Positions 10,774 to 30,591 of a DNA stretch of 46,100 nucleotides are shown here, one piece after another. Under the pieces are notes generated by a model. The model saw only the letters and a program-made list of their open reading frames with translations, was not told the origin of the DNA and searched no databases. A program made the position numbers and the translations under genes. Numbering within the stretch: position 1 is the first letter of the stretch; each line of letters opens with the position of its first letter. The stretch spans positions 1-46,100 of the IMG/VR virus record IMGVR_UViG_3300035162_004537; one strand, given 5' to 3'. The DNA is from a virus.

Positions 10774-12149
10774 TAGTCTCTCCTTACTACTGTGTAGGGG
10801 TACCCAAACTTGGTCATGTGGTGTCCAATTTTCTGGCACATGCGACTGCACGCCGTAACGAGCTGGTCTTTCATCACCAGCATAGTCGGCGTACTTTTGC
10901 CATTGTGTGGGCGTTGAATTCGCCCTAGAATCTGGCGAATGATATTTTCGTCGGCAACGGGCGACACTAGGATGAGTGTGTCTAGGTCTTTTCTGTCTAG
11001 CCCTTCCTTTGCCAGCACGGTTGTGGCGAAGATCAGGTCACACGTAGCCAGCTTCTCTTTACGGTCCGAGCTCTTGATTTTGCCGTGGATCATGCCGACC
11101 GATATGTCAGTACGGAGCATGAACCGGGCGTACAAGATCTCTACCTGCTCTACGCGCGGGCACAGGACGAGAATCTTTCTCTCGTCTTTAACTGCCTTGT
11201 CCACCCACTGGCATACGTAGTCGTTCCGGTCTTCGTCCAGAGCTATATGAGTAAGGAGGTACGCTAGATTGACGTCGCCAGTTCGGTCTCTCATGCCGCT
11301 CATGACATCATCAGGAACGTAGGTGTTCGTCTCTAGGAAGAATATCTCGGGGATAACGTCCTGGACATGGTCTAGGAACAGGATTTTACCTAGGTGATAC
11401 TGGTACAGCTTTTCCAGACCATCAGACCGGTCCGGGGTGGCTGATAGCCCCCAGCGTGTCCCGCGCCCCAGCGGGGCTACGGTATTAAACCCAGGAGCTC
11501 CTAGGTGATGCACCTCATCGAAGATAAATACTCCGAAGTGTTCCCGAAAGCCCTCGGGTAGTTCCCCGTTCTTTACTCTAGCTACCAGCGTTTGGATCAT
11601 CGCTACCGTGATGATCTTATCCCACGGCTTCTTACTCTTTCCTTGGAAGACCCCAACCTCGTCACGCTCGATGTTGGTGTGCTCGCAGATCCGGTCAATC
11701 CACTGCTCCATGAGGTCCTTCGTGTGCACTACAACCAGCCCGGGAACCTTAGTGGCAGCCCACGCGTGTAGCGCGACTACGGTCTTCCCCTTCCCACAAG
11801 CAAGCGAAAGCACCCCGGATCCCTGCTCGAGCATGGCCTTGTACGCGTTTTCTTGCGTACCCCTGTAGAGCTTGCAGGTAACTTCGACCCCGTCTACCTC
11901 CGGGAAAGTATCGAGAGACACATCCTCGATGTCAAACGGTAGGTCGGGCCACCGCTCGAACGGGATGAACGCTCTGGGGACCCGTAAGTGATGGTCGGTC
12001 TCTACCCAGGAGTGGAGCGACGTTTTACCATCTGGGCCGGTAAACGAGAGGGTGTTCTTGATTCCCTGTAGGTTTGAGATCTTCCTGAGCGGTAACCAAA
12101 GATATTCATTCCGGTATCCCACCTCTGGGTCGAAATTTACTGGCTGCAT
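10773..12149 (-). CDS. SF2 DEVH-box helicase (UvsW/XPB-like)
   Basis: 458 aa. Motif I LACGKGKTVVALH, motif Ia VVVHTKDLMEQW, motif II IFDEVHHL, motif III GLSATPDR, a second RecA domain (ILVLCPRVEQVEILYARF), motif V TTVLAKEGLDRKDLDTLI and motif VI QILGRIQRPHNGK are all present and in order. The N-terminal 110 residues may form a DNA-binding lobe. This architecture matches phage UvsW-type and Rad25-type helicases that migrate branched DNA or reverse forks, consistent with the recA and nuclease genes downstream in the operon. The start has an AGGGGG site. It is compact and lacks restriction-enzyme domains. Confidence 0.9.
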   Translation of the reverse strand: MQPVNFDPEVGYRNEYLWLPLRKISNLQGIKNTLSFTGPDGKTSLHSWVETDHHLRVPRAFIPFERWPDLPFDIEDVSLDTFPEVDGVEVTCKLYRGTQENAYKAMLEQGSGVLSLACGKGKTVVALHAWAATKVPGLVVVHTKDLMEQWIDRICEHTNIERDEVGVFQGKSKKPWDKIITVAMIQTLVARVKNGELPEGFREHFGVFIFDEVHHLGAPGFNTVAPLGRGTRWGLSATPDRSDGLEKLYQYHLGKILFLDHVQDVIPEIFFLETNTYVPDDVMSGMRDRTGDVNLAYLLTHIALDEDRNDYVCQWVDKAVKDERKILVLCPRVEQVEILYARFMLRTDISVGMIHGKIKSSDRKEKLATCDLIFATTVLAKEGLDRKDLDTLILVSPVADENIIRQILGRIQRPHNGKSTPTMLVMKDQLVTACSRMCQKIGHHMTKFGYPYTVVRRD

Positions 12150-12157
12150 TGCACCCC

Positions 12158-12880
12158 CTATCGGAGCCGCCTACGCCGCAACGAACGGCGGCGAGGCAGC
12201 ACCCTGCGACTTTTGAAGTAGTAAGAAATCTCTTCGCCTGCAGCTCTTGCCCCCGCTCCCGCTATTACTTCGAGAATCCTAAGCCCTAGATCAACTGCCA
12301 GGTCGAGGAGCTGGTCAAAGATCCCGGCAGGCTCCCAGGAGTCAAGGTATTCGTCTTCGTAGAGCTGCTCGGTGTCGGCGTCATAGTAACTTCCCCGCCT
12401 AGGTGGGGGGTCCCGGGGTGGGGGGTACGCAATAGGGCGGTCGCCGTCTGCGTGGTAGAAATAGTCGTCGTGCTCTTCTCTTTTAGGGGCAGCGCGCCCG
12501 TGGCTATCTCTACGGGGTTCCGGGCTTCGACGTCTGGGTTCTTCTCTGCTTCGACGAGGCTCTTCTATGCTTCGACGTCTAGGTTCTTCCCGGCGAGGCT
12601 CTGGGGCGCGGCGACGAGGCTCTTCTCTGCCCCTAGGTTGCTCTCTGCCCCTAGGTTGCTCTCGTCGGGGCTGTTCACCTCGTCGCGGCTGTTCTATGCG
12701 CGCGTCCCTCCTAGGCTCCCTTCGCGCAACACTTGGTGCTTGCTGTCGCTCGTTTCTGTGCCTGCCTTGGCTTTCTTGATGCGGCGGCCGTTCTCGGCGT
12801 AGTGTGCGGGTAGGCTCCCCGCGTGCTGTACGCTCTCTAGGTGGATCCCGCCGCAGATCCCGCAATACGTTATCTCCCAC
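12158..12880 (-). CDS. Arginine-rich low-complexity protein
   Basis: 240 aa from a GTG at 12878-12880 with a GGAGAG site. Residues about 10-165 are extremely rich in R, E and P in repeats such as EQPRGR, EEPRRR and EPRRD, so strongly basic and disordered. Residues about 190-225 form an apparent amphipathic or hydrophobic helix pair (FDQLLDLAVDLGLRILEVIAGAGARAAGEE), and the tail is again basic (RRRSLRRRRLR). It is the first gene of the leftward replication operon. It could bind nucleic acid or the membrane, or form condensates; no family is recognised. The coding DNA holds a perfect 18-bp tandem duplication and degenerate copies. Confidence 0.75.
   Translation of the reverse strand: MGDNVLRDLRRDPPRERTARGEPTRTLRRERPPHQESQGRHRNERQQAPSVARREPRRDARIEQPRRGEQPRREQPRGREQPRGREEPRRRAPEPRREEPRRRSIEEPRRSREEPRRRSPEPRRDSHGRAAPKREEHDDYFYHADGDRPIAYPPPRDPPPRRGSYYDADTEQLYEDEYLDSWEPAGIFDQLLDLAVDLGLRILEVIAGAGARAAGEEISYYFKSRRVLPRRRSLRRRRLR
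12625..12660. repeat. Perfect 2 x 18-bp tandem repeat
   Basis: The unit CTCTGCCCCTAGGTTGCT occurs twice head to tail at 12625-12642 and 12643-12660 and encodes the EQPRGR repeat of the arginine-rich protein. Flanking DNA to about 12,520 and 12,720 has more degenerate copies, which suggests growth by slippage or unequal recombination. Confidence 0.9.
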
Positions 12881-12967
12881 TGATACTCTCCTGTGAAGGC
12901 GTGATAGATTGTGCTATCGATCTCTTATGCTGGAGAAATCGCGTTACTAACGCTACCGGAGTTACTC
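12881..12967. promoter_or_regulatory. Divergent control region between replication and virion operons
   Basis: This 87-bp gap lies between the starts of the leftward and rightward operons, so promoters for both are expected here. It contains an inverted repeat GATAG-N6-CTATC at 12903-12918, a possible operator. It also holds CTTATGC at about 12925, whose complement GCATAAG recurs upstream of other minus-strand genes; GTTAGT lies 16 bases upstream of CATAAG on the minus strand. No strong sigma70-type pair is evident. Confidence 0.4.
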
Positions 12968-14092
12968 ATGCGCAGCTATCAAGCCGGCACTTTCGACATC
13001 TATGACGACGGGGGCTTACTTCTGAAGGAGCTCGTTCCCGCACAGGCGGAGCTTCCCGACTTCGTAAAAGAGGCAGCTACCGTAGGCCACGCGGAGCACC
13101 AAAATCTCTACGCCCTGGTAATGATCGAAGGCGGTACGGTGCTTCAGAAGTTTGCTACCGCCGACCCGGGGAACACCTGGTTGTCAACGTTGTACTTTGC
13201 CCGTACCAAAAACAACCTGCCCGTCGAGGCGCAGAAAGTTGCGGCAGCCAATCTGATTGAGGCTTGCGATGCGTTCGACATCGAAATCCCAGAATTTCTT
13301 TACGACGTAGCGGACGGGCCCCCCGATACTAATCTGGTAGACGTAACGGGCCTCGTGCCCCCGAGCATCGTGAAGCACGCGTCAGTCGTAGCAGACTCGG
13401 TGGCACGGAACGATGAGGTCTCCTACGCCATTGAACGCGCAGACGGCACCCAGTACTTCCCCCTCGGCGACGTCACAGCTGTTTCGGCAGCCATGGACTA
13501 CTTCGATAGAGAGCACCGCAACTTCATCCCCCGGGAGCGTAGGGAGTTTGCCGTCAAGGTGGCGCACATAGCGTCTCGAGGGCACCTACCCATACCCGAG
13601 TCTATGCAAAAGTACGCCGGCGCTGACCTCAACCCCTCGTTCGGAAATTACTTGGGGCTACGTCTTTTGCACCTTCAGCACGACGACGGCACTTTGGAAG
13701 CAGAGCTAGTTAAGATCGGGGCTGACGCGTACACCAACAGCCAGGATGACGTTGCTGCCTCGCTGGCAGAGTTCGATACCCGAACCGGTCTTTCCAGTAT
13801 GTGGGATCGGGATATTCCGGACCCCTATCTGTCAACGTTTGGCATGCTCAAGCTGGCAAAAGGGAAAACCGAAGATATTGGTGAGACGTTTACTCTCGGC
13901 CCGGACTCCGTGACTACGGATGAGCTCCTCATCCTTGCTTCCCGCGGCAAGGCCGACGTAGACAACCACTTTGGCATTGCGGTTGCCCAGAAGTTCGAGG
14001 CGAACCCGGTGGCAACCTTCAAGTCTATGCCTACCGAACAGAAGCGGGTGATGATGCGTATGGCAAACAGCCTAGAGTCGATCAAGGGGTAG
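12968..14092 (+). CDS. Unknown virion-module protein upstream of portal
   Basis: 374 aa from the ATG at 12968, preferred because GGAG lies 6 bases upstream; a GTG at 12911 in the same frame would add 19 residues but has no well-placed site. It starts MRSYQAGTFDIYDDGG. It is acidic, mostly helical by eye, and has several K-x-A segments (VKEAATVG, VKHASVVA) like other proteins of this module. It ends KRVMMRMANSLESIKG. No enzymatic motif is visible. First gene of the rightward operon, ahead of the portal, so probably a head or portal-associated virion component; that is inference from position. Confidence 0.75.
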   Translation: MRSYQAGTFDIYDDGGLLLKELVPAQAELPDFVKEAATVGHAEHQNLYALVMIEGGTVLQKFATADPGNTWLSTLYFARTKNNLPVEAQKVAAANLIEACDAFDIEIPEFLYDVADGPPDTNLVDVTGLVPPSIVKHASVVADSVARNDEVSYAIERADGTQYFPLGDVTAVSAAMDYFDREHRNFIPRERREFAVKVAHIASRGHLPIPESMQKYAGADLNPSFGNYLGLRLLHLQHDDGTLEAELVKIGADAYTNSQDDVAASLAEFDTRTGLSSMWDRDIPDPYLSTFGMLKLAKGKTEDIGETFTLGPDSVTTDELLILASRGKADVDNHFGIAVAQKFEANPVATFKSMPTEQKRVMMRMANSLESIKG

Positions 14093-14095
14093 TAG

Positions 14096-14743
14096 ATGCC
14101 GTCACCACTACTGCGCCCCGCGGGGCTGCTGGACGACGAGTATGGGCTGCATCTAGTTACCCTAAGCGTCCTACTGCTGAAAGAGCTTGGCCCAGACTAC
14201 TTAGACTGGGACACGGACCACTTGTGGGAAGAGCTCGAAGAGCGTTACGGCAGTCTCGGTACGATAACTAAGGAGCGCATCAACGCCCTTCGACTTCTAC
14301 ACTCCAACAGCGCGTTCTGGGAAGAGTGGGAGGTCTTTGAGAAGGTGACTGCTGCGATCATGGGGGAGCTCCCGCTATTCAGCTTAGTGCAGCCCCCAGA
14401 GCCCGAGGAGGTAGCTATCGCGGTTACTACCGCGCGCAGGTTCGACAAACATAAATGGGACGAAGACGTAAAGGCTTACATGGTAGCGGCTTGCCTAGAC
14501 GACGGGATGTGGTATTTCTTAGGTACCCCTCTGGCGTTTCTGCATGAGACTCTCTTGGAAGCTGACAACAGGTTAGGTATTAAGCGGAACTTCGCCGGCG
14601 TCGGTAACGCCCTAGAGGCTCAACGGGGTTTTTATTCTAGCCCCGACACAGCTGCTCAGGTGCAAGCCAATAAGGTACGGGAAGTCGAGCTAGTGCTACG
14701 TCGATACAATGGTGCAGTAGATAAGCAGCTCAAGGAGCTCTAG
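14096..14743 (+). CDS. Unknown protein next to portal
   Basis: 215 aa, start ATG at 14096 with an AAGGGG site a few bases after the previous stop; its TAG stop directly abuts the portal ATG. It is acidic and helical (LLLKELGPDYLDWDTDHLWEEL, WEEWEVFEKVTAAIMG), and ends with a helix (VREVELVLRRYNGAVDKQLKEL). No motif recognised. Tight packing against the portal gene suggests a portal-linked structural or assembly factor, as inference. Confidence 0.75.
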   Translation: MPSPLLRPAGLLDDEYGLHLVTLSVLLLKELGPDYLDWDTDHLWEELEERYGSLGTITKERINALRLLHSNSAFWEEWEVFEKVTAAIMGELPLFSLVQPPEPEEVAIAVTTARRFDKHKWDEDVKAYMVAACLDDGMWYFLGTPLAFLHETLLEADNRLGIKRNFAGVGNALEAQRGFYSSPDTAAQVQANKVREVELVLRRYNGAVDKQLKEL

Positions 14744-16624
14744 ATGCCTTCAGGTAATGGCTCGGGTGGATTTGGTCCCGGCAGTAGTGCTCGCTTTGCG
14801 GGTCAACGTGCGGGCGGCCAGGGCGGCAGGAACAACTCGTTTCGATACCCCTCTCCCTGGTGGGACGTTGCCCAGCTCGACCTCCCTAGGTCGGTCAAGC
14901 ACCTATTTCAGTGGTGCCTGTACCACGCGCTGGTCAACCCCTTGGTGTCTTCGGTCACTAGGAAGATGGCGGCCTACCCCATTACCGAGATTACAATTCT
15001 GGAAGAGCCCGAGGAGGGCTTCTCGGCCCACCATGACCGGTGGAAGGACGCCCTATTCCAGACTTTAGATGTCCGCAGCTTCCAACTCGAGGTAGGTCTC
15101 GACTTTTATACCTACGGAAACTGCATCGTCAGCATCCTGTTTCCCTTCCACAAGTACCTGGAGTGCCGGGCATGCGGAGCTCGGGAGCGCATTAAGCGCT
15201 TAAAGTTTAGGAAGGACTGGAACTTCCGGGACCACAAGTACATTCTCACTTGCCCTAAGTGTCGGGCAGTCCAGCCTGCAAAGGTCGATGACGTCCACTA
15301 CCCTAGCTACAAGGGCATCAAACTTATCCGCTGGAATCCCGCGGATATTGATATCGACTTTAATCCAATCACTCGGCAGCCGGAATACGCGTACAAGGCC
15401 CCCCAAAAGCTGAAGACGAAAGTAATTCGGAAGACTCAAAGCTACCTAGAGGACCTGCCTCACGCCCTGATCAAGAGCCTAAAGACTGGTAGGCCCTTCA
15501 TCATTGACTCTCGTAACGTCTACCACTTCAAGAACCCGACGCCGAGCTTGGCCGCTAACGATGATGGCTGGGGCTACCCGCCCATCCTGCCTGCATTGAA
15601 AGACAGCTTCTATCTACAGATACTGAAGAAGTCACAAGAGGCTGTGATGCTTGAGCATCTCATCCCCCTCGATATCTTCTTCCCTGCCAGCTCTGACGCG
15701 AACGCAAATCCTTACAGCATGATCAACCTGTCGGACTGGAAGTCTAGGGTAGAGAAAGAGATCGTTAAGTGGCGGTGGGATCCGAACTACAAGCCCATCC
15801 TCCCCGTTCCCATTGGGCACCAGCGCGTTGGTGGTAATGGCCGAGCGTTGATGCTTACTCAAGAGATCCGGGCCTGGTCAGAGCATATCGTTGCTGGCAT
15901 GGGCGTACCTCAAGAGTTCGCCTTCGGGGGTCTGTCCTGGTCGGGCTCCAATGTGTCGCTGCGTATGCTGGAAAACCAGTTCATGACGTATCGCCAGATG
16001 CATCAGCATTTCCTGCAACACTTCTTGATCCCGCACATCGCCCGATTCATGGGCTGGTCCGAGATCAAGGTGAACATGCGGGAGTTCAAGATGGCAGACG
16101 ACATTCAGGGCAAACAGCTCCTGTTGTCGCTCAATCAGATGAAGAAGGTCAGCGATAAGACGCTACTGGCCGAGTTTGGGAAAGACGCACTGGCCGAGTC
16201 TAAGATTATCGAGCAGGAGCTTCAGCGCTCACTTGAGCTCCAGAAGACGGAGCAGATGTACGGCGCCAAGGTGCAGGGCGAAGTTCAAGAGATGCAGGCG
16301 AAAAGACAGCAGCAGCTTCAGGCGTTGATGGGGGCGGGGCAACCCGCCCCTGGACAACCGCCTGCTGCTATGCAGCCGAACGAGGTTGTCCAGGGCATGA
16401 GTGCCCCGCCGAATTCGGTAAACGTCCTAGAGCTCGCTGACGCCTACGCCAAGAAGCTCTCTAATATGGACCCCGCTCAATCCGCGGATGCCCTTCGTAG
16501 GATCCGAGCGCAGAGCCCGGAGCTTCATCAAGTTGTTCAGCAGAAGATGTCCCTGCTCCAAGCACAGGGAATCAAGCCCCTACCAGAGCAGCGCCCCCCT
16601 CGTCGGGAGGACAAAGTCATCTAG
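14744..16624 (+). CDS. Portal protein with zinc-ribbon insertion
   Basis: 626 aa. Portal-type features: an N-terminal Gly/Ser-rich arm, a wing beginning YPSPWWDVAQLDLPRS, the MAAYPITEI region, IKLIRWNPADIDIDFNP, VYHFKNPTPSLAANDDGWGYPPI, and a long helical segment with IVAGMGVPQEFAFGG and MLENQFMTYRQMHQHF. An insertion has CRACG near residue 143 and CPKC near 167, a probable zinc ribbon. The last 140 residues are Q/A/P-rich and coiled-coil-like, as in many portal C-termini. The portal forms the dodecameric DNA gate at the capsid vertex and would work with the terminase encoded at 30,590. Confidence 0.85.
   Translation: MPSGNGSGGFGPGSSARFAGQRAGGQGGRNNSFRYPSPWWDVAQLDLPRSVKHLFQWCLYHALVNPLVSSVTRKMAAYPITEITILEEPEEGFSAHHDRWKDALFQTLDVRSFQLEVGLDFYTYGNCIVSILFPFHKYLECRACGARERIKRLKFRKDWNFRDHKYILTCPKCRAVQPAKVDDVHYPSYKGIKLIRWNPADIDIDFNPITRQPEYAYKAPQKLKTKVIRKTQSYLEDLPHALIKSLKTGRPFIIDSRNVYHFKNPTPSLAANDDGWGYPPILPALKDSFYLQILKKSQEAVMLEHLIPLDIFFPASSDANANPYSMINLSDWKSRVEKEIVKWRWDPNYKPILPVPIGHQRVGGNGRALMLTQEIRAWSEHIVAGMGVPQEFAFGGLSWSGSNVSLRMLENQFMTYRQMHQHFLQHFLIPHIARFMGWSEIKVNMREFKMADDIQGKQLLLSLNQMKKVSDKTLLAEFGKDALAESKIIEQELQRSLELQKTEQMYGAKVQGEVQEMQAKRQQQLQALMGAGQPAPGQPPAAMQPNEVVQGMSAPPNSVNVLELADAYAKKLSNMDPAQSADALRRIRAQSPELHQVVQQKMSLLQAQGIKPLPEQRPPRREDKVI
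16331..16350. repeat. GCAA-capped hairpin inside portal gene
   Basis: GGGGCGGG, loop GCAA, CCCGCCCC: a perfect 8-bp GC-only stem with a GNRA tetraloop, inside the Pro/Gln-rich portal tail. It could be a stable mRNA element or may simply reflect Gly-Ala-Gly-Gln-Pro codons. Confidence 0.6.
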
Positions 16625-16731
16625 TCCCAGTCATCCTCTCCACGGTATTCGGCGTCTGTGGCCTTATCGTGCATGTCCAACAAGGCGTAAGCGACACCCT
16701 GAACTGCGAAGATAAAGAATATAGGCCACAC
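16621..16731 (-). CDS. 36-aa predicted single-pass membrane peptide
   Basis: GTG start at 16729-16731, preceded by GGAGGA seven bases upstream; stop TAG overlaps the portal stop on the other strand. The product begins MWPIFFIFAVQGVAYALL, a hydrophobic segment long enough to span a membrane, and ends in an acidic tail (DAEYRGEDDWD). It directly follows the 19-aa micro-gene, with GTG immediately after that gene's TAA. The strand is opposite to its neighbours. Small phage membrane peptides can be holins, antiholins or superinfection factors, but no family is recognised. Confidence 0.55.
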   Translation of the reverse strand: MWPIFFIFAVQGVAYALLDMHDKATDAEYRGEDDWD

Positions 16732-16791
16732 TTATTCGTCCTCCGTATCATCGCCTGACGCCTTTTCGAGATCATCTTCGAGACCACCCAT
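16732..16791 (-). CDS. 19-aa acidic micro-peptide
   Basis: ATG at 16789-16791 with a strong AGGAGGG site and an in-frame stop four codons upstream, so the start is fixed. The product is MGGLEDDLEKASGDDTEDE. Its stop TAA is immediately followed by the GTG of the membrane peptide, as in a coupled pair. It may be a leader whose translation exposes the downstream site. No homologue family is known to me. Confidence 0.45.
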   Translation of the reverse strand: MGGLEDDLEKASGDDTEDE

Positions 16792-16857
16792 TGAGCCCTC
16801 CTAGTGTTTTGGGTTCTACTCCTTATGCCAGAATAATAGCTGACCGAATGGTGACGA
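16792..16857. promoter_or_regulatory. Control region before the RNA polymerase gene
   Basis: 66 bp between the leftward micro-genes and the rightward polymerase. On the plus strand TTGGGT (16809-16814) and AATAAT (16832-16837) are 17 bases apart, a possible sigma70-like promoter. CTTATGC at about 16822 gives GCATAAG on the minus strand, shared with other control regions. The polymerase ATG itself has only a weak site (GGTGA). Confidence 0.4.
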
Positions 16858-19800
16858 ATGCCCAACCTGTCCCCCGAGCAACAGTTCGACGAAATCAAGG
16901 CCGCGGTTGTTTCCGTGATCGAGAAGCAGTTCCCTGTCGCTACCAAGACCACATCGCTAGAGGTGAAAAATGTCGAGGTGCGAGACGCTAAGGACAGTGA
17001 GGATGTCGTAGACCAGCAAAATGCCTTACGGGCAGGGAAGAGTTGGTCCGTTCCCGTGTACGGAGACGTCGTTCTTAAGCGCAACGGTAAGCAGATAGAC
17101 AAGAAGCGCATGAAGCTGATGAATCTGCCTAAGCTTACGAATCGGTTTGGCTACATAGTGGACGGCAGCGAGTACCAAATCCTCAATCAATTCCGCCTTA
17201 AGTCGGGTGTCTACCACCGCCGTGCTCCGAACGGAAGCCTGCTAGCGGAATACAACCTCGCCAACTCTGACCAGTTTGCGAACGGTCGCAGCTTCAAGGT
17301 TCGGCTCGACCCCAAGTCGGCTATATTTTACTTAGACCACCGAAACTCCAGTGTCCCGCTTTACCACCTCCTAAAGGACGCGGGAGTAGACGACGACGCC
17401 CTAAAGAAGCAGTGGGGCAAAGAGATTCTAGAAAAGAACAAGAAGCGCACCACTTCGGAGAAAGCTCTCCGTGCCCTTCAGCGTGCAGTAGGCCCAGAGG
17501 TTGCGGGGGATGGCAATAATTTGCTATCCCGGCTCCTGGCAAAGACGAAACTGCTCCCCGAGACCACGGCCAAGACACTGGGCAAGCCGTTCGGCAGCGC
17601 GGAACCCGCTGCCCTCCTACGCTCTACTGCACGGCTGCTGGGGATCTCTAGGGGCGATGAGGAGTCGGACGATAAGCAGGCTCTGGAGTTCCAGTCCATC
17701 CACTCCGCAGAAGACTTGTTATCCGGTCACCTGGCCAAAAACTCTAGCCGTGTTCGTAGGAAGGTACTGAATAATCTTTCTCGAAAGGACACTGCCAGGA
17801 CTATCTTACCTGTCGACGCGCTAGAGTCGACTCTGCGAAGTTTCTTTGGCACTTCCTTAGTGGGCCAACCGGAACAAACTAACCCCCTGGATATGATTAG
17901 TGGCCAATTGCGGACTACGATCATGGGCGAGCAGGGAGGCATCAAGTCGTCCCACGCAGTCTCTAATGACGCGAAGCTAGTCAACCCATCTCACTTAGGT
18001 TTCCTAGACCCAATCCATACGCCAGAGGGGGAGAAGACCGGCATTTCGCTCTCGCTCCCCCTGGGCTCGCGCAAGCGGGGTAACACCCTAGTCTCCAGGT
18101 TTTTCGACACCAAGCTCGGGAAGGTCGTTGACGTAAATGCGGGGGACGCACTTCGCAGAACAGTAGCTTTCCCCGATCAATACAAGCGTGCTGGCAGGGT
18201 GTTTAGGCCGCTGGCCAAAAAGGTCAAAGCAACACGGGGCGGGGAGATTGTCTTTGTGGATCCCTCCGAAGTGGACTACGTCATCCCAAGCCCCCGCGGG
18301 TTGTTCGGTGTCGCTAGCAACCTGATCCCATTTCTACAGAACAACCAGGGCAACCGGGCTATGACAGCGGTTCGGCAGCAAGAGCAAGCCGTCCCTCTGG
18401 AGCACCGAGAGGCTCCCATGGTCCAGGTAGAGACCGACAAGGGCGGTACCTTTGAGGGCATCGTCGGTAAGTTTGCCGCACACACTTCCCCCATAGCAGG
18501 GATAGTGAAGAAGGTAGGTAAGAACTTCATAACCCTGTCCGGTAAGGACGGGAAGTCAAAGAACGTTCAGCTCTATAGGGACTTCGCCCTGCGGGGGAAC
18601 TCTCTCTACGACTCGGAGGTCCGCGTCAAGAAGGGGGACAAGGTAACTAAGGGCCAGGTTTTGGCAGACACCACGTTCACCAAAGATGGAGACCTAGCAC
18701 TAGGCACTAATCTACGCACTGCCTATATGCCCTTCCATGGCTACAACTTCGAGGATGGTATCGTCATTAGCGAGAAAGCCTCCAAGAAGCTGACATCGCT
18801 GCACATCCACCAGAAGGCGGTACGTCGCGACAGCGATACTACGCTGAGCCGGAAAAAATTCCTGGCGCAGTACCCCTACGTATACAAGAAGGGCCAGGTT
18901 AAGAACATCGGGGAAGACGGTGTTGTGCGGATTGGCGCTGAAGTGCGCGAGGGTGACCCACTTATCCTCGCCCTCCGCAAACCCACCGAGAGCAAGCTGA
19001 GAAAGCAAATCCGCATGTTCCGGCGGGGTAGGCCAGATAAGTTCCGGGATGGCTCCCTGGCTTGGCAAGGGGAGACGTCAGGCATCGTGACGGATGTGGT
19101 CCGTCGAGGCAAGGAGATTGCGGTCTACGTCAAGACGCGGGAAGCTGCCCAGCTGGGCGATAAGCTAGTTGGGCGACACGGAAACAAGGGCGTCATAACG
19201 CGTATAGTCCCCCAGGCAGAGATGCCATTTGCCGAGGAGAAGGACGGGAGTAGGCGGCACGTTGACATCCTGCTGAACCCTCTAGGAGTTCCCGGTCGAA
19301 TCAACCTGGGGCAGATCTTAGAGACTGCGGCAGGGAAGATTGCAGAGAAGACGGGCAAGGTCTTCAAAGTGAAAAACTTTGAGCCCGACACGGACTACCT
19401 TGGGAAGGTGCAGGGGATGCTCGCCAAGGCCGGCATCAAAGATAAGGAGACGCTGATAAATCCCAGGACGGGAAAGCGCTACAAGCAGGACATCCTTGTA
19501 GGCAACCAATACATCCTAAAGCTCCGTCACCAGGCAACTAAGAAGCTCTCTGCGCGTTCTGGCTCTGGTGGGGAGGGTGCGTTTTACGATATCAACCACG
19601 CACCCGCAAGCGGCGCCCCCCACGGTGGGCAGTCCATGGGCGAGCTAGGCCTGTACTCACTCCTGGCTCACGGTGCGCGCGAGAACATCCACGAGATGTA
19701 CTCCTACAAGACAAACCGGAACGACGAACTCTGGTACGCGATCCGAGAGGGGAAGCCAATTCCCACCCCCAAAGTTCCTTTCGCCTTTGACAAGCTTCTC

Positions 19801-22800
19801 GGGTACCTCAACGCAATGCGCGTGAACGTGAAGAAGGAGGGAAATAGCCTACAGCTAACGCCCTTCACGGAGAAGCAGGTCAAGGAGCTGTCTTCTGGCA
19901 AGCTTAGCAGCCCGAGCTTGATGGTCCGAGGCAAGGACTTAAAGCCCATTAAGGGCGGCTTGTTCGACCCTGAGATCACGGGGGGAATGGAAGGTACTCG
20001 CTGGTCGCACTTTGACCTAGCGGAGCCGATGCCCAACCCGCTATTTGAGGAGGCTATCAAGAAGCTGACAGGCTTAACGAAGAATAAGTACCGGGAATAC
20101 ATCACCGGCGACGTGGCTGTGAACGGCAAACGGGGAGGGGCTGCTATCAACGAGCTCCTTAAAGGTATTGACGTAAAGAAGATGCGCAGCAGCATTGAGA
20201 AGAAGATCGTCAAGACAACTGGTGCCGGTAAGAAGAAGCTCCACAAGCAGCTACGCATCCTCAAGGCACTGGACGACGCGGACATAAGTCCCACCGTCTA
20301 TATGATGAAGTCTGTGCCGGTAACCCCTCCAATATTCCGACCGGTAACCGCAAAGGAGGACGGGTCTTTATCTAGCGATGACCTGAACGGCCTCTACAAG
20401 GATATTGGGGCCCTCAATGAGACCCTAGAGTTAAACCGTAAAACGGGCGTTCCTCACGAACAGATGAAAGAGGTACGTGCAGAGCTGTACGACAGCATAA
20501 AGGCAATGACGGGCATGGGCGGGTCTCTTACACGAGAGTACCGAGGAATCCTCGACATCATTTCGGGCAAGATACGTAAAGGTAAAGGCGCCGGGGAGGG
20601 CTCCTCCAAGCGAGGCTTCTTCCAGCGGAATGTCCGCCAACGCAGGCAGGACTTTTCCGCTAGGTCTATCATCACTCCCGACCCCCGTATGGGTCTGGAC
20701 GAAGTAGGCGTTCCCGAAGATATTGCGTGGACTATGTTCCAGCCCTTTATCGAGCGGGAACTCATTCGCCAGAATTTTAAGCCACAGGATGCGATCGACG
20801 CGGTAAAGGGGCGTACGGTAGTGGCTCAGCGTGCTCTTACTCGAGCCATGGCAAACCGTCCCGTCCTGCTGAAGCGGGACCCGGCACTGCACAAGTTCAA
20901 CGTCATGGGGTTTAAGCCCCGACTAGTTCGCGGCAAGGCCATCGAGATCCACCCACTGGTCACCGGGGGGTACAACGCTGACTTTGACGGGGATACCATG
21001 AGTATCTACCTGCCTATTACGGAGAAGGCCGTGAAGGAGGCCCACAAGCTCTACCCCAGTAACAACCTGTTTAGCCCGACTACGGGTGGGGTCATGTACA
21101 CGCCCGGCCATGAAGCACTACTGGGCACTTACCTACTTTCCCAGAAAGGTAAGCGTACCAAGAAGTCTTACAGAGATCTCAAGAGCGCGCACTCAGCAGC
21201 GCGCAAAGGCGAGATAGGGAAGACCGATATCATTCGGGTAGGGGGCGCAGAGACTACTGTGGGCCAGCTGCTCCTAGAGGAAGGCTTACCCGAGGAGTAC
21301 AGGCAAACGGGTAAGCGCTCTATCGCTAAGATGCGCATCTTCGATAAGGGCTCGGTAAAGAAGCTGCTCACTAGTGTGGCTAAAAAGCACTCCGGTAAGT
21401 TTAGCGATGTAGCAAACCACCTAAAGGACCTCGGTAATGACTTCAGTACTGAGGAGGGATTCTCGGTAGGTCTTTCCGACTTTGCCGTCGTTAACCGGCG
21501 TGTGCGGGACCGCATGTTTGCTAGGGCAGAACGGGCAGCTGCCCTGATCCGCAAGGACAGCAAGCTAAAGAGCCCCCAAAAGCAGAGCAAAATCCTCAAG
21601 ATGTTCGCCCGGGTAGACGACCGCTTGGATTCCCTCAACAATATTGAGCTACTGAAGAACCCTACTAATATTTTCAAGATGGTCGTGTCCGGCGCTCGGG
21701 GTAGCCCCCTGCAGCTTAAGCAGATCATCAGTACCCCTGCGCTGGTTCAGGACGCAAAGGACCGGACGGTGCCCTACTTGATTCCGAAGTCTTACTCGGA
21801 GGGCATGGATGTGGCGTCCTACTGGACCACTATGCATGGTGCTCGTATGGGCACCGTTAAGAAAGTAGAGGGCGTGCGGGATCCTGGCTACCTATCCAAG
21901 CAAATCATTAATTCTACGATGAACCAGCTCGTTACGGAAGACGATTGCGGTACGTCGGACGGCGTCAACATATCAGCGTCAGATACAGACGCGTCGGATA
22001 GGTACCTGGCCAAGCGGGTCAAGGTTAAGGGCCATAGCTACCGCGCGGGCTCCCTGGTCACGCCAGAGCTTATCTCCGCTGCCCGTAGCTCCAAGCTGTC
22101 GAGCCTACCTGTACGCTCCCCTATGCGCTGCAAGGCATCTCACGGGGTGTGTAAGAAGTGCATGGGACTAACGGAGGCCGGAAAGTCCTACGATATTGGA
22201 ACCAACGTGGGAGTCATCGCCGCACAGTCTATCGGCGAGCCTAGCGCACAGCTTGCGATGCGCGTGTTCCACACAGGAGGCGTAGCAAAGGGTAAGGCGT
22301 CTAAGCAGACGTCTATGTTCGGCAGGCTTAGCCAGCTTTTACGTATGCCTCGGAACTTACCGCATCAGGCGCCCCTGGCGCTGTCTTCGGGTAAGGTGGA
22401 TGCAATCAAAGCTGCTCCTCAAGGCGGTCATTACGCATTTATCAATAAGGTTCCGTACTACCTGCCCCCGGACCAGGTTTCCAAGGTACGTAAGGGCAAG
22501 AGGGTAATGCGGGGGGACGCTCTCACCGATGGGGCCGTTGACCCCAAACAGCTGCTCTCCCTGAAAGGTGTGCGGGCTGTGCAGGACTATCTTACGGACG
22601 AGATCCACGACGTTATGCGAGGCGCTGTGCCGTTGAAGCGCCGCAACGTAGAGGTTGTGGTCAAGGCCATGACCGATGTGGGTAAGATCGAAGACGCGGG
22701 CGACCACGAAGACTGGACCACCGGAGATATCCGACCTATCTCTCAGATAAGGTCCTGGAATCTTTTTGGGAGAAAGAAGAAGAAGAAGAAGAACCGCGTA

Positions 22801-23028
22801 GCGTTTACCCCCATAGTTAAGGGAGTAGATGTCCTACCTACTGAAGTACAGGAGGACTGGCTAGCTCGCCTGAACTTCCAAAACTTGAGCCGCACTCTAT
22901 CTCAAGCGGCCCGGGAAGGCTGGAAGTCGAAGCTTCACGGGTTCCACCCAATTCCTGGCATCGCGTATGCCAAGGAGTTCGGACGGGGTAAGGAACGTCT
23001 AGGTAAAGACTGGAAGGGGCAATATTAA
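16858..23028 (+). CDS. Single-chain fused RNA polymerase beta/beta-prime
   Basis: 2,056 aa. Beta half (about 1-990): KLTNRFGYIVDGSEYQ near 91, the rifampicin-region equivalent near 337-360, HTPEGE near 387, MPFHGYNFEDGIVISE near 624, GDKLVGRHGNKGV and LNPLGVPGRINLGQILE near 765-820, and GGQSMGELGLYSL near 923. Beta-prime half (from about 992): GLFDPEITGG near 1035, DFSARSIITPDP near 1263, NRPVLLKRDPALH, the Mg-binding NADFDGD at 1373-1379, the zinc ligands VTEDDC and RCKASHGVCKKC, the GVIAAQSIGEP and LAMRVFHTGG trigger region near 1784-1806, and the C-terminal FQNLSRTLSQAA. The N-terminal beta-prime zinc finger is absent. All catalytic elements appear intact, so it is probably an active two-barrel polymerase. 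Stop and spike start overlap (TAATG). Confidence 0.95.
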   Translation: MPNLSPEQQFDEIKAAVVSVIEKQFPVATKTTSLEVKNVEVRDAKDSEDVVDQQNALRAGKSWSVPVYGDVVLKRNGKQIDKKRMKLMNLPKLTNRFGYIVDGSEYQILNQFRLKSGVYHRRAPNGSLLAEYNLANSDQFANGRSFKVRLDPKSAIFYLDHRNSSVPLYHLLKDAGVDDDALKKQWGKEILEKNKKRTTSEKALRALQRAVGPEVAGDGNNLLSRLLAKTKLLPETTAKTLGKPFGSAEPAALLRSTARLLGISRGDEESDDKQALEFQSIHSAEDLLSGHLAKNSSRVRRKVLNNLSRKDTARTILPVDALESTLRSFFGTSLVGQPEQTNPLDMISGQLRTTIMGEQGGIKSSHAVSNDAKLVNPSHLGFLDPIHTPEGEKTGISLSLPLGSRKRGNTLVSRFFDTKLGKVVDVNAGDALRRTVAFPDQYKRAGRVFRPLAKKVKATRGGEIVFVDPSEVDYVIPSPRGLFGVASNLIPFLQNNQGNRAMTAVRQQEQAVPLEHREAPMVQVETDKGGTFEGIVGKFAAHTSPIAGIVKKVGKNFITLSGKDGKSKNVQLYRDFALRGNSLYDSEVRVKKGDKVTKGQVLADTTFTKDGDLALGTNLRTAYMPFHGYNFEDGIVISEKASKKLTSLHIHQKAVRRDSDTTLSRKKFLAQYPYVYKKGQVKNIGEDGVVRIGAEVREGDPLILALRKPTESKLRKQIRMFRRGRPDKFRDGSLAWQGETSGIVTDVVRRGKEIAVYVKTREAAQLGDKLVGRHGNKGVITRIVPQAEMPFAEEKDGSRRHVDILLNPLGVPGRINLGQILETAAGKIAEKTGKVFKVKNFEPDTDYLGKVQGMLAKAGIKDKETLINPRTGKRYKQDILVGNQYILKLRHQATKKLSARSGSGGEGAFYDINHAPASGAPHGGQSMGELGLYSLLAHGARENIHEMYSYKTNRNDELWYAIREGKPIPTPKVPFAFDKLLGYLNAMRVNVKKEGNSLQLTPFTEKQVKELSSGKLSSPSLMVRGKDLKPIKGGLFDPEITGGMEGTRWSHFDLAEPMPNPLFEEAIKKLTGLTKNKYREYITGDVAVNGKRGGAAINELLKGIDVKKMRSSIEKKIVKTTGAGKKKLHKQLRILKALDDADISPTVYMMKSVPVTPPIFRPVTAKEDGSLSSDDLNGLYKDIGALNETLELNRKTGVPHEQMKEVRAELYDSIKAMTGMGGSLTREYRGILDIISGKIRKGKGAGEGSSKRGFFQRNVRQRRQDFSARSIITPDPRMGLDEVGVPEDIAWTMFQPFIERELIRQNFKPQDAIDAVKGRTVVAQRALTRAMANRPVLLKRDPALHKFNVMGFKPRLVRGKAIEIHPLVTGGYNADFDGDTMSIYLPITEKAVKEAHKLYPSNNLFSPTTGGVMYTPGHEALLGTYLLSQKGKRTKKSYRDLKSAHSAARKGEIGKTDIIRVGGAETTVGQLLLEEGLPEEYRQTGKRSIAKMRIFDKGSVKKLLTSVAKKHSGKFSDVANHLKDLGNDFSTEEGFSVGLSDFAVVNRRVRDRMFARAERAAALIRKDSKLKSPQKQSKILKMFARVDDRLDSLNNIELLKNPTNIFKMVVSGARGSPLQLKQIISTPALVQDAKDRTVPYLIPKSYSEGMDVASYWTTMHGARMGTVKKVEGVRDPGYLSKQIINSTMNQLVTEDDCGTSDGVNISASDTDASDRYLAKRVKVKGHSYRAGSLVTPELISAARSSKLSSLPVRSPMRCKASHGVCKKCMGLTEAGKSYDIGTNVGVIAAQSIGEPSAQLAMRVFHTGGVAKGKASKQTSMFGRLSQLLRMPRNLPHQAPLALSSGKVDAIKAAPQGGHYAFINKVPYYLPPDQVSKVRKGKRVMRGDALTDGAVDPKQLLSLKGVRAVQDYLTDEIHDVMRGAVPLKRRNVEVVVKAMTDVGKIEDAGDHEDWTTGDIRPISQIRSWNLFGRKKKKKKNRVAFTPIVKGVDVLPTEVQEDWLARLNFQNLSRTLSQAAREGWKSKLHGFHPIPGIAYAKEFGRGKERLGKDWKGQY

Positions 23029-24509
23029 TGGCCATATCTTCACTAATGGCCCAGTACGGCATGAGCCAGACAAATATATATCGCGCCGTCGTGACAGCCG
23101 TAGACTCCGTTAAGCACACCTGCTCAATTAAGGGCGACATGAAGGGGGGTCAGTGGTCCGGCGTTGAGATTATGCCCATGTACCAGACTACCGAGGGATA
23201 CGGGTCCTTCTATCTCCCCGAAGTCGGGGCGGTAGTCTGGGCGTGTGCCCCCGGGGATCGAGATAAGCCCTTCATCGTAGGGTTCTCTCCCTCCCCCTCC
23301 GCGGAAGACCAGGAAAGCCCGGACGAGGATCCCCTCGACTACCGAATGAACCGCCCAGTTCTTGGGCCGGGGGACTACATGGTAGCCTCCCAGGATACGG
23401 CGTTCATCGTCCTCCGCAAGAGCGGCTACTTAGAACTTGGGTCGGGGCAGACGGCTAAGCGCGCCTACATACCCCTCACTAACATCATACGGGACACATT
23501 TGAGTCCTACGTCATGCAAGGCAGCGGCGGCGATTTTTCCTGGGCCACCCGCCGTGAAGACGAATCCCATGGGAGCGACGTTACTCCCGTTGAGTACAGG
23601 CTTCGGATTAAGGAGTTTATAGAAGAAGACCCTATTCTCGACATCGCATTTGGTCGGATCGAGGGGGAGGACGACTTCTTTGTGCCCCCTAACGGTGAGA
23701 TAGGACAAATCATAGGCCGGTTCATCCTTGAGCTCCCGGATGGGTCGAGAAACTTCTCGGCTTACCTGGACCGACGAGGCAACGTCATGTACCACACCCA
23801 GGGCGACATCCAAGAGAACGTAGAGGGCACTCGTAGTGTGTATGTCCGCAACACCTTCCAGGAGCGCGTGGTAGGCCTGCGGACGTCCTTCGTGGGAGTG
23901 CGCAAGCAGCAGGTCGGTACTGACGACGCCCTAGAGGTAGGGCGCTCTCGTAGAATGACGGTAGAGGGCGACGTTACCGACGTAATCGGCGGCCAGTACA
24001 CCAAGACGGTAAACGGCCCTACTGTGGAGTCTTTAGGAGCCGTAACGCAGGTCATAGCGGGCCAGTTCGAGAGAACTATCGTTGGCAACAAAAACGAGAC
24101 CGTTAGTGGGGGTAAGCAGACTACCGTGATGGAGAACTACCACGAGGTTGTCGCCATGACGAAAACCGTCATGCTGGGGAACGCAATACCTGGAGGTGAC
24201 GCCTTCAAGATGGTAGCCGCCAATGGAAATATCCAGATGACCGCCCCCTTGGGAGTGTTCCAGCTCGAAGCCCTGAAGGTTACCGTGACCAGCGCGAATG
24301 TACAGATCGGCTCCGTTCTGGCCACGCAGCCTGTAGTAAAGGGCACTCAGTGGACTGCACTTTGGGCTGCACTACTCTTCTGGATGGATACCCACACCCA
24401 TATGTGCACAGCCCCGGGGACGCCGTCGCTCCCCCCGTTGATTCCGTCCTCGCCGATCCTAAGCCCCTTGCAGGCGGCAGCCCTGTCCGTCAAAGTATTC
24501 GTGGAGTAG
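23028..24509 (+). CDS. Baseplate spike protein (gp5/VgrG-like)
   Basis: 493 aa. The N-terminal OB-fold segment (about 15-90) reads YRAVVTAVDSVKHTCSIKG, then LPEVGAVVWACAPGDRDKPFIVGF, typical of gp5/gpV hub-spike proteins. From about 250 to 430 there are repeated strands such as VGLRTSFVGVRKQQVG and GQYTKTVNGPTVESLG, as in a triple-stranded beta-helix needle. The C-terminal THTHMCTAPGTPSLPP is the His/Pro-rich signature common near spike ends. It would form the membrane-piercing tip of a contractile tail. Start overlaps the polymerase stop, so the two are co-translated. Confidence 0.85.
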   Translation: MAISSLMAQYGMSQTNIYRAVVTAVDSVKHTCSIKGDMKGGQWSGVEIMPMYQTTEGYGSFYLPEVGAVVWACAPGDRDKPFIVGFSPSPSAEDQESPDEDPLDYRMNRPVLGPGDYMVASQDTAFIVLRKSGYLELGSGQTAKRAYIPLTNIIRDTFESYVMQGSGGDFSWATRREDESHGSDVTPVEYRLRIKEFIEEDPILDIAFGRIEGEDDFFVPPNGEIGQIIGRFILELPDGSRNFSAYLDRRGNVMYHTQGDIQENVEGTRSVYVRNTFQERVVGLRTSFVGVRKQQVGTDDALEVGRSRRMTVEGDVTDVIGGQYTKTVNGPTVESLGAVTQVIAGQFERTIVGNKNETVSGGKQTTVMENYHEVVAMTKTVMLGNAIPGGDAFKMVAANGNIQMTAPLGVFQLEALKVTVTSANVQIGSVLATQPVVKGTQWTALWAALLFWMDTHTHMCTAPGTPSLPPLIPSSPILSPLQAAALSVKVFVE

Positions 24510-24511
24510 CT

Positions 24512-24769
24512 GTGGCACTTAATATCGGAAATGCGCGAGTAGGCACTGGCCTGGCGGGCGAAATCAAAGCCGCCATGGCGCTCGAAATGCGGAAGCAGTA
24601 CGGGAACGACTTTGACGAGGTCTTGGCCGAGAAGGGTTTGATCGCCTACGGGGATGCTATCGCTGCGGCGGTTATCAACCACTTCGAGGCGAACGCCGAC
24701 TTGAAGCTGTCTGGTGTCCAGTCCGGGGCCAGCAATGTCACGGTCAACGGCCCGAACGCAATCACGTAG
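24512..24769 (+). CDS. Small baseplate-associated protein
   Basis: 85 aa from a GTG at 24512, two bases after the spike stop with GGAG upstream; the longer frame starting inside the spike gene is rejected. Product starts MALNIGNARVGTGLAGEIKAAM and contains YGDAIAAAVINHFEANADLKLSG, then VNGPNAIT. Small Ala-rich helical proteins of this type often follow the spike gene in myophages. Exact role unknown. Confidence 0.65.
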   Translation: MALNIGNARVGTGLAGEIKAAMALEMRKQYGNDFDEVLAEKGLIAYGDAIAAAVINHFEANADLKLSGVQSGASNVTVNGPNAIT

Positions 24770-24787
24770 ACTACCGAGGGAGGTACC

Positions 24788-25015
24788 TTGAACCGAAAGC
24801 AACGACGGCGAGCATCGAAAGCTACTGGGAATCCCGCATGGAAGCGCGGTAATATTCTCCAGGACCCTGCAAAGCTTTATGAGATCATGTCAAAATTCAA
24901 AGGCGCTATGGACGGTGTAGAGGTGGAACTTACTGCCCACGCTGCGCGACTGGCTAAGTCTGCCGAGAACTCCGAGCGCCTTGAGCGCGAACGAGCGGCA
25001 CAGGGCGCGCTATGA
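24788..25015 (+). CDS. Small basic phage protein
   Basis: 75 aa from a TTG at 24788 with a GGGAGG site. Starts MNRKQRRRASKATGN, a basic opening common in small phage structural or chaperone proteins, and continues as one long amphipathic helix (VEVELTAHAARLAKSAENSERLERERA). Overlaps the next start by 4 bases. Function unknown. Confidence 0.65.
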   Translation: MNRKQRRRASKATGNPAWKRGNILQDPAKLYEIMSKFKGAMDGVEVELTAHAARLAKSAENSERLERERAAQGAL

Positions 25016-26223
25016 CCGCATGGACCCAGGTAGGGCCTGGCGCAAATCTTGATGGTCTACTGGCACTAGCGACTCAAATTCAGGGAGTCCTGGACGCAAT
25101 TGGGACTGCCTTGGAGGCTATCGCTGCCATTATAGATATTCTAGCCGCGCTGGCAACGTTGACCATCAACCTGTTGTCTGCGATCGTAAGCGCCATCATC
25201 AATGCTATTGAGCAGCTTGTCTTAGATATGTTTGAGTACAACGTTGCGCTGGCCGTACACACCAACATCAACTGGGACCCACAGTGGCGGTATGACCGCG
25301 ACACTCTGGCAGGCGAGGGCGCGGAGGTTAACGATTTCGTCAACGACGGCAGCCTCCCCTGGACGGGGGGAGGCACCGATGGGTGGCTGCTCGACCTTCT
25401 TACGTCTTCCCAAGATGAATCAGACCCATTCCGGCCGGTTACCGATGCAGGCACACAAATTCGCGGCATCATCGTTATGAACGGCGTCTCGAATAATGGA
25501 GAGCTAGAAGACCTTAAGAGCCTGTACGACCTATTTACTGACTTCTCTGACTTCAAGGACGCGCTTGATATAAAGAAGACGCTGGAAGAGACCTCGGAGT
25601 CTATAGCAAAATCTGTATCTAGGGCTGGCTCTGCGTTCTCTGACGGGTTTTGGCGCACCCTCAACGCCCAAGGTCCCCCTAGTCTTCGCGGCTATAACGA
25701 GTTCTCTGACTACGTACCCAAGCTAGGCAGCTACCCAAAGTGGCTGTCTGTCCCAGTGGCCGCGCTGTTTCCCGCGACCAAGAAGTTATTTGAGGGATTG
25801 CGGAAGGCGCTAGGGATGCTACGCCCCTCCCTAGGGCTTGCGGATGCCTTCGTAGCTCTGGCTGCGGCCATTAAGGCTAGGGTTGAGCTGATCCGGGCTG
25901 CGCTGGCAGAGATTACCGGGCTGATTGAGACGCTAGTTACTCTGCTAGTTTTCTTTTCTTCGGCCTACATTATCGTGATTGATGAGCCCGAGGGGGGTAT
26001 GAACGCGTTCATTAACACTGCCCTTTCGGGCGAAGGCAAGCCTTTCTTCGGGACCGGTGGTATCGTTGCAGGGTTCACCGTACTCGCTACCAACCCCGAT
26101 GCTCAGAAGTCTCTAGATCTCTTTATGGAGACGCTCGGGATGCCCCTACAGAACTTCTCCGATCAGGCCACCGAGTTGACGGACAAGCTAGACGACACCT
26201 ATGAAGAACTCTTCCTCCCGTGA
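25012..26223 (+). CDS. Hydrophobic structural protein, probably baseplate or tail
   Basis: 403 aa. The N-terminal 75 residues are an unusually hydrophobic helical stretch (ALEAIAAIIDILAALATLTINLLSAIVSAIINAIEQ). A second hydrophobic region lies near residues 280-325 (VALAAAIKARVELIRAAL, LIETLVTLLVFFSSAYIIVI). The middle contains aromatic and Gly-rich loops (NINWDPQWRYDRD, LPWTGGGTDGWLLDLL). Such pairs of long hydrophobic helices occur in phage proteins near the spike. No catalytic motif. The position after the spike suggests baseplate or tail-tip function, by inference. Confidence 0.7.
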   Translation: MTAWTQVGPGANLDGLLALATQIQGVLDAIGTALEAIAAIIDILAALATLTINLLSAIVSAIINAIEQLVLDMFEYNVALAVHTNINWDPQWRYDRDTLAGEGAEVNDFVNDGSLPWTGGGTDGWLLDLLTSSQDESDPFRPVTDAGTQIRGIIVMNGVSNNGELEDLKSLYDLFTDFSDFKDALDIKKTLEETSESIAKSVSRAGSAFSDGFWRTLNAQGPPSLRGYNEFSDYVPKLGSYPKWLSVPVAALFPATKKLFEGLRKALGMLRPSLGLADAFVALAAAIKARVELIRAALAEITGLIETLVTLLVFFSSAYIIVIDEPEGGMNAFINTALSGEGKPFFGTGGIVAGFTVLATNPDAQKSLDLFMETLGMPLQNFSDQATELTDKLDDTYEELFLP

Positions 26224-30226: not shown

Positions 30227-30591
30227 CGCTTCTTACCGTTAGCCCTCTGCTGCTGTATCAGCAGGTCCATGTCGGACATCTCGGGCTTCTGCCACCAGGT
30301 TAGGACCATGGCACCAACGATGGGGATCTCCTCCCCGTCGTCCTGGTGCCAGAACTGGTGGCGCATCTCCTCGAATCGCGCATCAACACCTATGCGTTCT
30401 CCGCTTTTGCGGATCCAATCTGCAGCATACCTCCGTAGGGTGACGTCTTTCTTATCCCCGGGGTTGAGCATCCTGACCGGAATTTTGGCAATATGAAGGT
30501 CCGCGTCCGATGTACGCGCAGCTACTGGCAGGATTCGCCCGTGCGTTATCTTGTCCAGTGTTTCCAGCAAAGGGGTAAGGTCTAGGTCCAT
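30223..30591 (-). CDS. Minus-strand hypothetical protein, head to head with terL
   Basis: 122 aa from the ATG at 30589-30591; a longer start at 30654 is possible and has an AGG six bases upstream, but would overlap terL. Product starts MDLDLTPLLETLDKITHGRIL and contains ARTSDADLHIAKIPVRML, RRYAADWIRKSGERIGVDARFEEM, and ends QQQRANGKKR. The interval has no convincing plus-strand gene, which supports this one. The start codon shares two bases with the terL start (CATG). No family recognised. Its 3' end overlaps the 29831 gene by 4 bases, tail to tail. Confidence 0.6.
   Translation of the reverse strand: MDLDLTPLLETLDKITHGRILPVAARTSDADLHIAKIPVRMLNPGDKKDVTLRRYAADWIRKSGERIGVDARFEEMRHQFWHQDDGEEIPIVGAMVLTWWQKPEMSDMDLLIQQQRANGKKR

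Follow-up and report, generated by a model that had tools for sequence, protein, structure and literature searches.

A 46,100-base stretch of viral DNA (IMG/VR record IMGVR_UViG_3300035162_004537, positions 1 to 46,100; hereafter the window), a fragment of a larger phage genome of about 100-200 kb, raises the question of how a bacterial virus would use an RNA polymerase (RNAP) whose two large subunits, β and β′, are made as one polypeptide. The open reading frame (ORF) concerned extends from 16858 to 23028 on the plus strand, starts with ATG, contains no internal stop codon and encodes 2056 residues. The explanation that accounts best for the observations, and which we consider probable, is that its product is a virion-packaged, α-free and σ-dependent single-chain polymerase for early transcription.

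Assignment of the ORF as β fused to β′ is supported by Pfam, NCBIfam and models of the two half-chains. Pfam matches occur in the order Rpb2 domains 3 and 6 (residues 339-400 and 589-901), followed by Rpb1 domains 1, 2, 3, 4 and 5 (residues 1108-1816), which bears out the preliminary description of this DNA, where β motifs were seen to precede β′ motifs within one frame. The closest NCBIfam model is that of the natural β/β′ fusion of helicobacters, PRK09603 (E = 5e-174), at a score of 581, far under its cut-off of 5372. The motifs named in that description are present, comprising YNFEDG (629-634), GDK and GNKG, which carry the active-site lysines K769 and K777 (E. coli β K1065 and K1073; 19162-19188), YNADFDGD, whose metal-binding aspartates are D1375, D1377 and D1379 (NADFDGD at 20974-20994), and the trigger helix sequence QLAMRVFHTGG (1798-1808; region 22231-22281, with M1801 and H1805). 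In a family alignment of 82-83 members the catalytic lysines are kept in 83/83 and the three aspartates in 82/82, so the key catalytic residues, whose loss would have refuted the first identification, are retained. Equivalents of K769 and K777 were found in all 37 fused representatives, in 8/8 bacteria and in 10/10 archaea, and the trigger histidine, equivalent to H936, in 37/37. Both double-psi β-barrels are present with their DxDxD aspartates and two lysines, the features that define a two-barrel RNA polymerase. Two relatives (L005/L006) display GGDLDGD instead of NADFDGD at the catalytic motif, with the three aspartates retained.

AlphaFold2 models were built separately for the β-like half (residues 1-995; 16858-19842) and the β′-like half (residues 996-2056; 19843-23025), which were also delimited by alignment to RpoB and RpoC, respectively. 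The β half (predicted local distance difference test (pLDDT) 86.1, predicted template modelling (pTM) score 0.82) has bacterial RpoB as its top Foldseek match (E = 7.7e-77), and the β′ half (pLDDT 88.1, pTM 0.84) has bacterial RpoC (template modelling score 0.86, E about 1e-67); together with the PRK09603 match, these predicted folds uphold the identification of a phage-encoded single-chain β-β′ enzyme. Alignment with E. coli, B. subtilis and other enzymes reveals that the β part retains the protrusion, fork, barrel, flap and C-terminal regions and that its lobe is shortened, to about 163 residues versus 199-301 in the enzymes compared. The β′ part retains the lid, the coiled coil, a bridge helix of 36 residues (residues ~1652-1687 in the model), the trigger helix and the four zinc cysteines of the C-terminal part (C1697, C1758, C1765 and C1768; 21946-22161; conserved in 35-36 of 37 representatives), while the rudder is shortened. 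The two halves meet at residues ~985-1005 (19810-19872, ...NAMRVNVKKEGNSLQLTPFTE...), where the end of β and the start of β′ align to '...LNAMRVNVKKEG-NSLQLTPFTEKQV...' with no linker between them; the junction segment q974-1044 has a near-constant length of 69-78 residues across all members. All 37 fused and all 7 Arash-type enzymes (described below) have lost the N-terminal zinc-binding domain of β′, which is retained in phages with separate subunits. Of the classical rifampicin sites, H526 is replaced by G or N in most members and S531 by T in 37/37, and resistance is predicted from these substitutions; judged by its sequence, the single-chain enzyme is probably rifampicin-resistant.

A frame of this kind on a single metagenomic contig could arise if two genes had been wrongly joined in assembly or annotation. 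A profile scan of IMG/VR collected 312 stretches encoding relatives; 72 of the loci retained hold complete single-chain homologues of 2008-2824 residues, all of them single frames from independent metagenomes or contigs. The frame is therefore not an assembly error, and an artefact, already refuted by these homologues, retains a negligible probability. The best segments of the homologues are 34-63% identical, 62 relatives are less than 90% identical to one another, and each large record (about 100-200 kb) contains exactly one such gene, several rows for a record being pieces of one frame. Bacterial viruses with a single-chain polymerase are a large, previously overlooked group. Matches labelled as phage (Staphylococcus, Listeria, Enterococcus and some Salmonella) that resemble host rpoB/rpoC were left out as relatives; ordinary bacterial rpoB-rpoC occurs in several phage records of Listeria, Staphylococcus, Enterococcus and Salmonella and in plasmid records, reflecting host contamination or mislabelled chromosomes.

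In trees computed from 1775 shared alignment columns, which are unrooted and whose support values derive from short searches, the fused members form one group (Shimodaira-Hasegawa-like approximate likelihood ratio test, 99; 97 under the C20 mixture model on 30 taxa). Its sister group consists of the Arash-type phages (Salmonella phage Arash, OQ632216, gp206 and gp216; Vibrio phages D69, D148 and D181), and neither group falls within bacteria or archaea. Arash-type enzymes have in common with the window polymerase the linkerless β-β′ junction, the lack of the β′ N-terminal zinc finger, the σ family, the portal, capsid and terminase, and a promoter-like motif, but their β′ is split after the catalytic barrel, whereas that of the window is unsplit. 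Because the junction is common to both sister groups, these sequences are most simply explained if the fusion predates the split between them and the breaks in Arash-type β′ came later; the reverse order is a less simple alternative that these trees still allow. In Arash-type members L104, L109 and L119 the enzyme is broken again, into β plus the start of β′ (about 1130-1220 residues), a barrel piece of 381-388 residues and a β′ C-terminus encoded elsewhere. The enzyme proposed as a distinct polymerase class in the preliminary description belongs to a clade of its own outside bacteria and archaea. It is not a one-off, since the family is large, the junction is common to Arash-type phages and phages with β and β′ near the cellular type had already been published (PMC7481178). 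The deep branch occupied by the single-chain family bears on the age of viral RNA polymerases.

In cellular RNA polymerases the α dimer is the platform on which β and β′ assemble. Searches for α (PF01000) gave no match in any of the 30 fused-type and Arash-type records, while controls were positive in 13/14 genomes, lending support to the earlier idea of an enzyme that works without α. A σ-like protein of about 240 residues (family A4), homologous between close and distant members, was detected with a profile of three sequences in 22/25 fused records, 4/4 Arash-type phages and 0/3 phages with separate β and β′. A4 matches bacterial SigA in the PDB (E = 8e-10), the SigA/RpoD alignment spans σ regions 2-4, and PHROGs labels the family a σ factor; Pfam σ regions 3 and 4 are recognised, with region 2 under the Pfam threshold in most members. 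An initial view that the fused phages lack σ, taken from Pfam region 2 alone, was dropped after weak region 4 matches and then the family profile gave the count above. In close relatives the A4 gene precedes the polymerase by about 44-49 kb; its presence in the window phage is inferred from these relatives, because it would fall outside the fragment.

The σ family bears on the possibility that the fused chain is a hybrid enzyme that assembles with host α, ω and σ70. Such an assembly would fit the bacterial-like core fold and the preserved positions of the β′ coiled coil, which binds σ region 2 and is kept at 43 residues, and of the flap helix. The flap-tip helix had been thought missing, a view rejected when an E. 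coli-numbered alignment showed it to be kept (23 versus 26 residues), only the later flap loop being shorter. Yet the equivalents of R275, E295 and A302, the σ70-contact residues of E. coli β′, are replaced in the fused enzymes; replacement with the coiled coil kept is what would be expected for a private σ. As a dedicated σ family also co-occurs with the fused polymerase, a host hybrid appears quite improbable.

Evidence for packaging comes from the proteomics of purified Arash particles, in which 116 proteins were found and Gp206 was the most-detected one (3516 spectra, 100% coverage), with 1210 spectra for Gp216, 1148 for the helicase Gp217 and 467 for the σ factor Gp10 (PMC10585845). Gp206 corresponds to β plus the N-terminal part of β′, Gp216 to the remaining β′, and Gp10 is a member of the A4 family. 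Per residue, spectral counts, which are a crude measure, amount to 2.31 for Gp206, 2.00 for Gp216 and 2.00 for Gp10; the portal reaches 1.51 and the capsid protein 4.34. With the Arash enzyme and its matching σ inside the particle, viral expression probably starts without the host polymerase. The β-β′ fusion is unmentioned in the Arash paper, where 'fused' has 0 occurrences (PMC10585845). Arash and the window have in common the terminase, portal and capsid and one further protein.

Very high abundance in Arash particles (PMC10585845) is also what a purely structural head component, or an inactive relic, might display. Against this stand active-site residues that are invariant though the proteins differ at about 60% of positions, and the inteins that interrupt active-site motifs in some members, since inteins persist at functionally critical sites; a relic or structural role is accordingly very improbable. 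The polymerases of L040, L080/L081, L083 and L084/L085 contain in-frame inserts of 353-494 residues after q390, q1378 and q1805, which carry LAGLIDADG and, in L081, also intein-splicing domains; in some relatives the NADFDGD motif and the trigger helix seem to be interrupted by inteins.

A further explanation is that the enzyme has no virion function, being made during infection to read middle or late genes with the phage σ while the host polymerase reads the early genes, and that its presence in particles is carry-over. The Arash authors, who named early transcription as one possible reason, allowed for carry-over of abundant enzymes as the other (PMC10585845). Carry-over fits poorly with an RNAP that is the most-detected virion protein, near-equal in amount to its other part and to its σ and above the portal per residue, with a polymerase gene that sits among virion genes, and with the second σ of Arash, gp196, which is unmentioned in the virion table (PMC10585845). 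Encoded at 120656-121693 of OQ632216, gp196 is more RpoS-like and is unnamed in the virion paper; it may perhaps serve later transcription.

A promoter-like element bears on the same alternative. Arash has 30 copies of the octamer GGTATAAG on one strand and a single copy on the opposite one (2.4-2.7 expected on each). Of the 30 sites, 24 lie no more than 60 nucleotides upstream of a leftward-gene start, where 6.7% would be expected, and the extended consensus is TGGTATAAGtAAaGTGTA. In 63 fused loci the strand counts are 53 versus 2. The window and its nearest relatives carry the form GGCATAAG or AGCATAAG, and three candidate early-promoter elements were located on the minus strand of the window. 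That at 16822-16829 (GGCATAAG) lies between portal and RNAP and points away from the latter into small minus-strand ORFs; that at 12924-12931 (AGCATAAG) lies 44 nucleotides upstream of the leftward replication block; and the weakest, at 8817-8824 (CGCATAAG), lies 50 nucleotides upstream of the DnaB-like helicase gene. Downstream of the first element (16630-16800, minus strand), inspection by eye suggested two tiny ORFs that run leftward and have a good ribosome site. We read GGYATAAG as a promoter at which the phage's own enzyme would start early transcription. The complementary view, in which CTTATRCC on the plus strand upstream of the RNAP start (30/63 loci versus 0.44 expected) is the promoter of the RNAP gene, was rejected because the Arash strand bias persists where genes run leftward and GGYATAAG precedes minus-strand early genes.

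The extended -10 element of σ70, TGnTATAAT, resembles GGTATAAG, which host σ70 could therefore read; this is the main alternative for recognition of the element and favours an enzyme without a virion function. The -10-like element nevertheless ends differently, in G at 30 sites and in T at 2, as GGTATAAT is rare (2 in Arash). Taken together, these observations make a non-virion enzyme with host-driven early transcription unlikely, though it deserves to be kept in view.

Under the preferred explanation of a packaged polymerase, β joined end to end with β′ would form the usual crab claw without an α dimer, giving an active DNA-dependent core. The chain would be made late, with the flanking virion genes, packaged in the particle together with the phage-encoded σ-like protein and injected with the DNA, and the packaged enzyme would start the leftward early genes at GGYATAAG promoters. 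For the window phage, we infer that the chain is active and packaged, that σ pairs with this core and recognises the promoter, and that one enzyme serves the early, perhaps all, genes. The σ-like protein and the packaging in Arash, absent from the preliminary description, likely change the mechanism to be expected of the enzyme. Besides possible carry-over and the σ70-like appearance of the element, several points weigh against a packaged polymerase. The A4 gene lies outside the 46-kb fragment, and the polymerases of the close relatives are 55-65% identical; 3/25 fused records contain no detectable σ, possibly as incomplete contigs; the flap-tip residues that bind σ region 4 are only partly alike; and the virion proteomics come from a sister phage with a split β′.

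The broader proposal, a widespread and separate viral class with a one-chain α-free core outside bacteria and archaea, carried in the particle together with a σ of its own (perhaps also with a SNF2/RapA-like ATPase) and using a lineage-specific GGYATAAG promoter, is a tentative one, to which we give slightly less than an even chance. A SNF2/RapA-like ATPase gene is present in one relative (L277:2372-4144, plus strand, G020 record), about 5 kb from the σ-like gene; its product is homologous to the Arash virion helicase Gp217 (E = 1e-48) and is a possible partner of the packaged polymerase. If correct, the proposal describes a virion polymerase that uses σ, in which it would differ from the T7-like, phiKZ-like and crAss-like ones already known, and offers a clear hypothesis for a result of the Arash proteome that had been left unexplained. 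A canonical core in which a covalent fusion replaces the α platform would make the role of α directly testable, and a single-gene, probably rifampicin-resistant, σ-dependent polymerase is a potential laboratory tool.

Another published group comprises the multi-subunit RNAP-encoding Caudovirales (mReC, 97 contigs), whose β and β′ are near the cellular type (Weinheimer & Aylward 2020, PMC7481178). Similarly to the family described here, their subunits can be aligned with cellular enzymes, form a separate deep branch and come from the same source database (PMC7481178). The window also encodes the COG0085-like and COG0086-like proteins plus NADxDGD by which mReC are defined, as judged by Pfam and NCBIfam equivalents. 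That paper, however, speaks of β and β′ subunits and calls only crAssphage fused (PMC7481178). The mReC capsids found are of the Gp23 type (PF07068) in 8/8 cases, a type with no match in the 30 fused-type and Arash-type records and positive in three separate-subunit phages. Terminase type did not separate the fused lineage from mReC and was abandoned for this purpose; PF03237 gave weak matches in several fused records and none in gp23 phages. Some overlap between the two groups is likely, and a partial identity possible. Separate-subunit phages (Cobetia Carin-5 and Yersinia GN1; β′ of Rhizobium RHph_TM30 and Vibrio 1.031) also encode two-barrel RNAPs, with a σ-annotated neighbouring gene in Carin-5, but differ in having separate genes in the replication module, a Gp23 capsid, the zinc finger and no A4 σ.

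Cellular fusions display the same β-β′ order in one chain but correspond to models of 2839-2890 residues, versus 2056 in the window. Those of Helicobacter and Wolbachia work with α, ω and a standard σ. Natural rpoB-rpoC fusion is documented (PMC7483510). Jumbo phages of the phiKZ/AR9 type possess α-free two-barrel enzymes, a virion RNAP (vRNAP) and a non-virion RNAP (nvRNAP), the former residing in the particle (PMC7598289). These consist of four or five polypeptides and have no σ homologue, in contrast with the single frame of the window, whose similarity to AR9/PBS1 parts is short and weak. Single-polypeptide two-barrel phage RNAPs are also known in crAss-like phi14:2 (gp66), YonO and P23-45 (gp64/gp96), of which phi14:2 gp66 and P23-45 gp96 are virion enzymes; all are highly diverged from cellular β/β′, whereas the window enzyme keeps a near-complete canonical domain set. 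No publication on a canonical full-length β-β′ phage fusion, or on its pairing with a packaged σ, was found in the open-access literature.

The genes of the window fall into two blocks, one for replication that runs leftward (recombinase, DNA polymerase, primase, DnaB helicase, uracil-DNA glycosylase and helicase) and one for the virion that runs rightward (two conserved genes, portal, RNA polymerase, T4 gp5-like hub, terminase and capsid). The polymerase gene, placed in a phage late region by the preliminary description, is part of a virion-morphogenesis block, but the window covers only a fragment of the genome. The portal gene (14744-16624, plus strand), directly upstream, is homologous to Arash portal gp204 (E = 3e-76); a homologue is present in 71/84 loci and almost always precedes the RNAP gene. 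The portal gene is preceded by the two conserved genes (12911-14743, plus strand), at 12911-14092 and 14096-14743, with homologues in 57/84 and 59/84 loci, respectively; the true start of the former is probably the ATG at 12968. Downstream, the ATG of the baseplate hub gene (23028-24509, plus strand; PHROG 430, Pfam Gp5_trimer_C) overlaps the RNAP stop codon (TAATG), and a hub homologue follows the polymerase in 64/84 loci. The large terminase (30551-32281, plus strand; PHROG 675, E = 1e-43; Arash gp1, E = 1e-51) and the major capsid protein (39489-40529, plus strand; PHROG 2522, E = 4e-15; Arash gp226, E = 2e-39) lie further downstream. The order two conserved genes, portal, RNAP, hub and terminase recurs across the family (84 loci). 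Scans of 14000-26000 for σ70-type promoters and terminators revealed no excess over shuffles, and the T7-like polymerase model PF00940 gave no match in a search in which no control matched either.

Within the replication block, a uracil-DNA glycosylase domain (PF03167) is encoded at 10084-10851 on the minus strand; Arash also has a uracil-DNA glycosylase, which was detected in its virions (PMC10585845). The minus strand at 12158-12880 encodes a 240-residue protein with many REEPRR repeats and no family match, which may perhaps condense DNA or act on the host early in infection.

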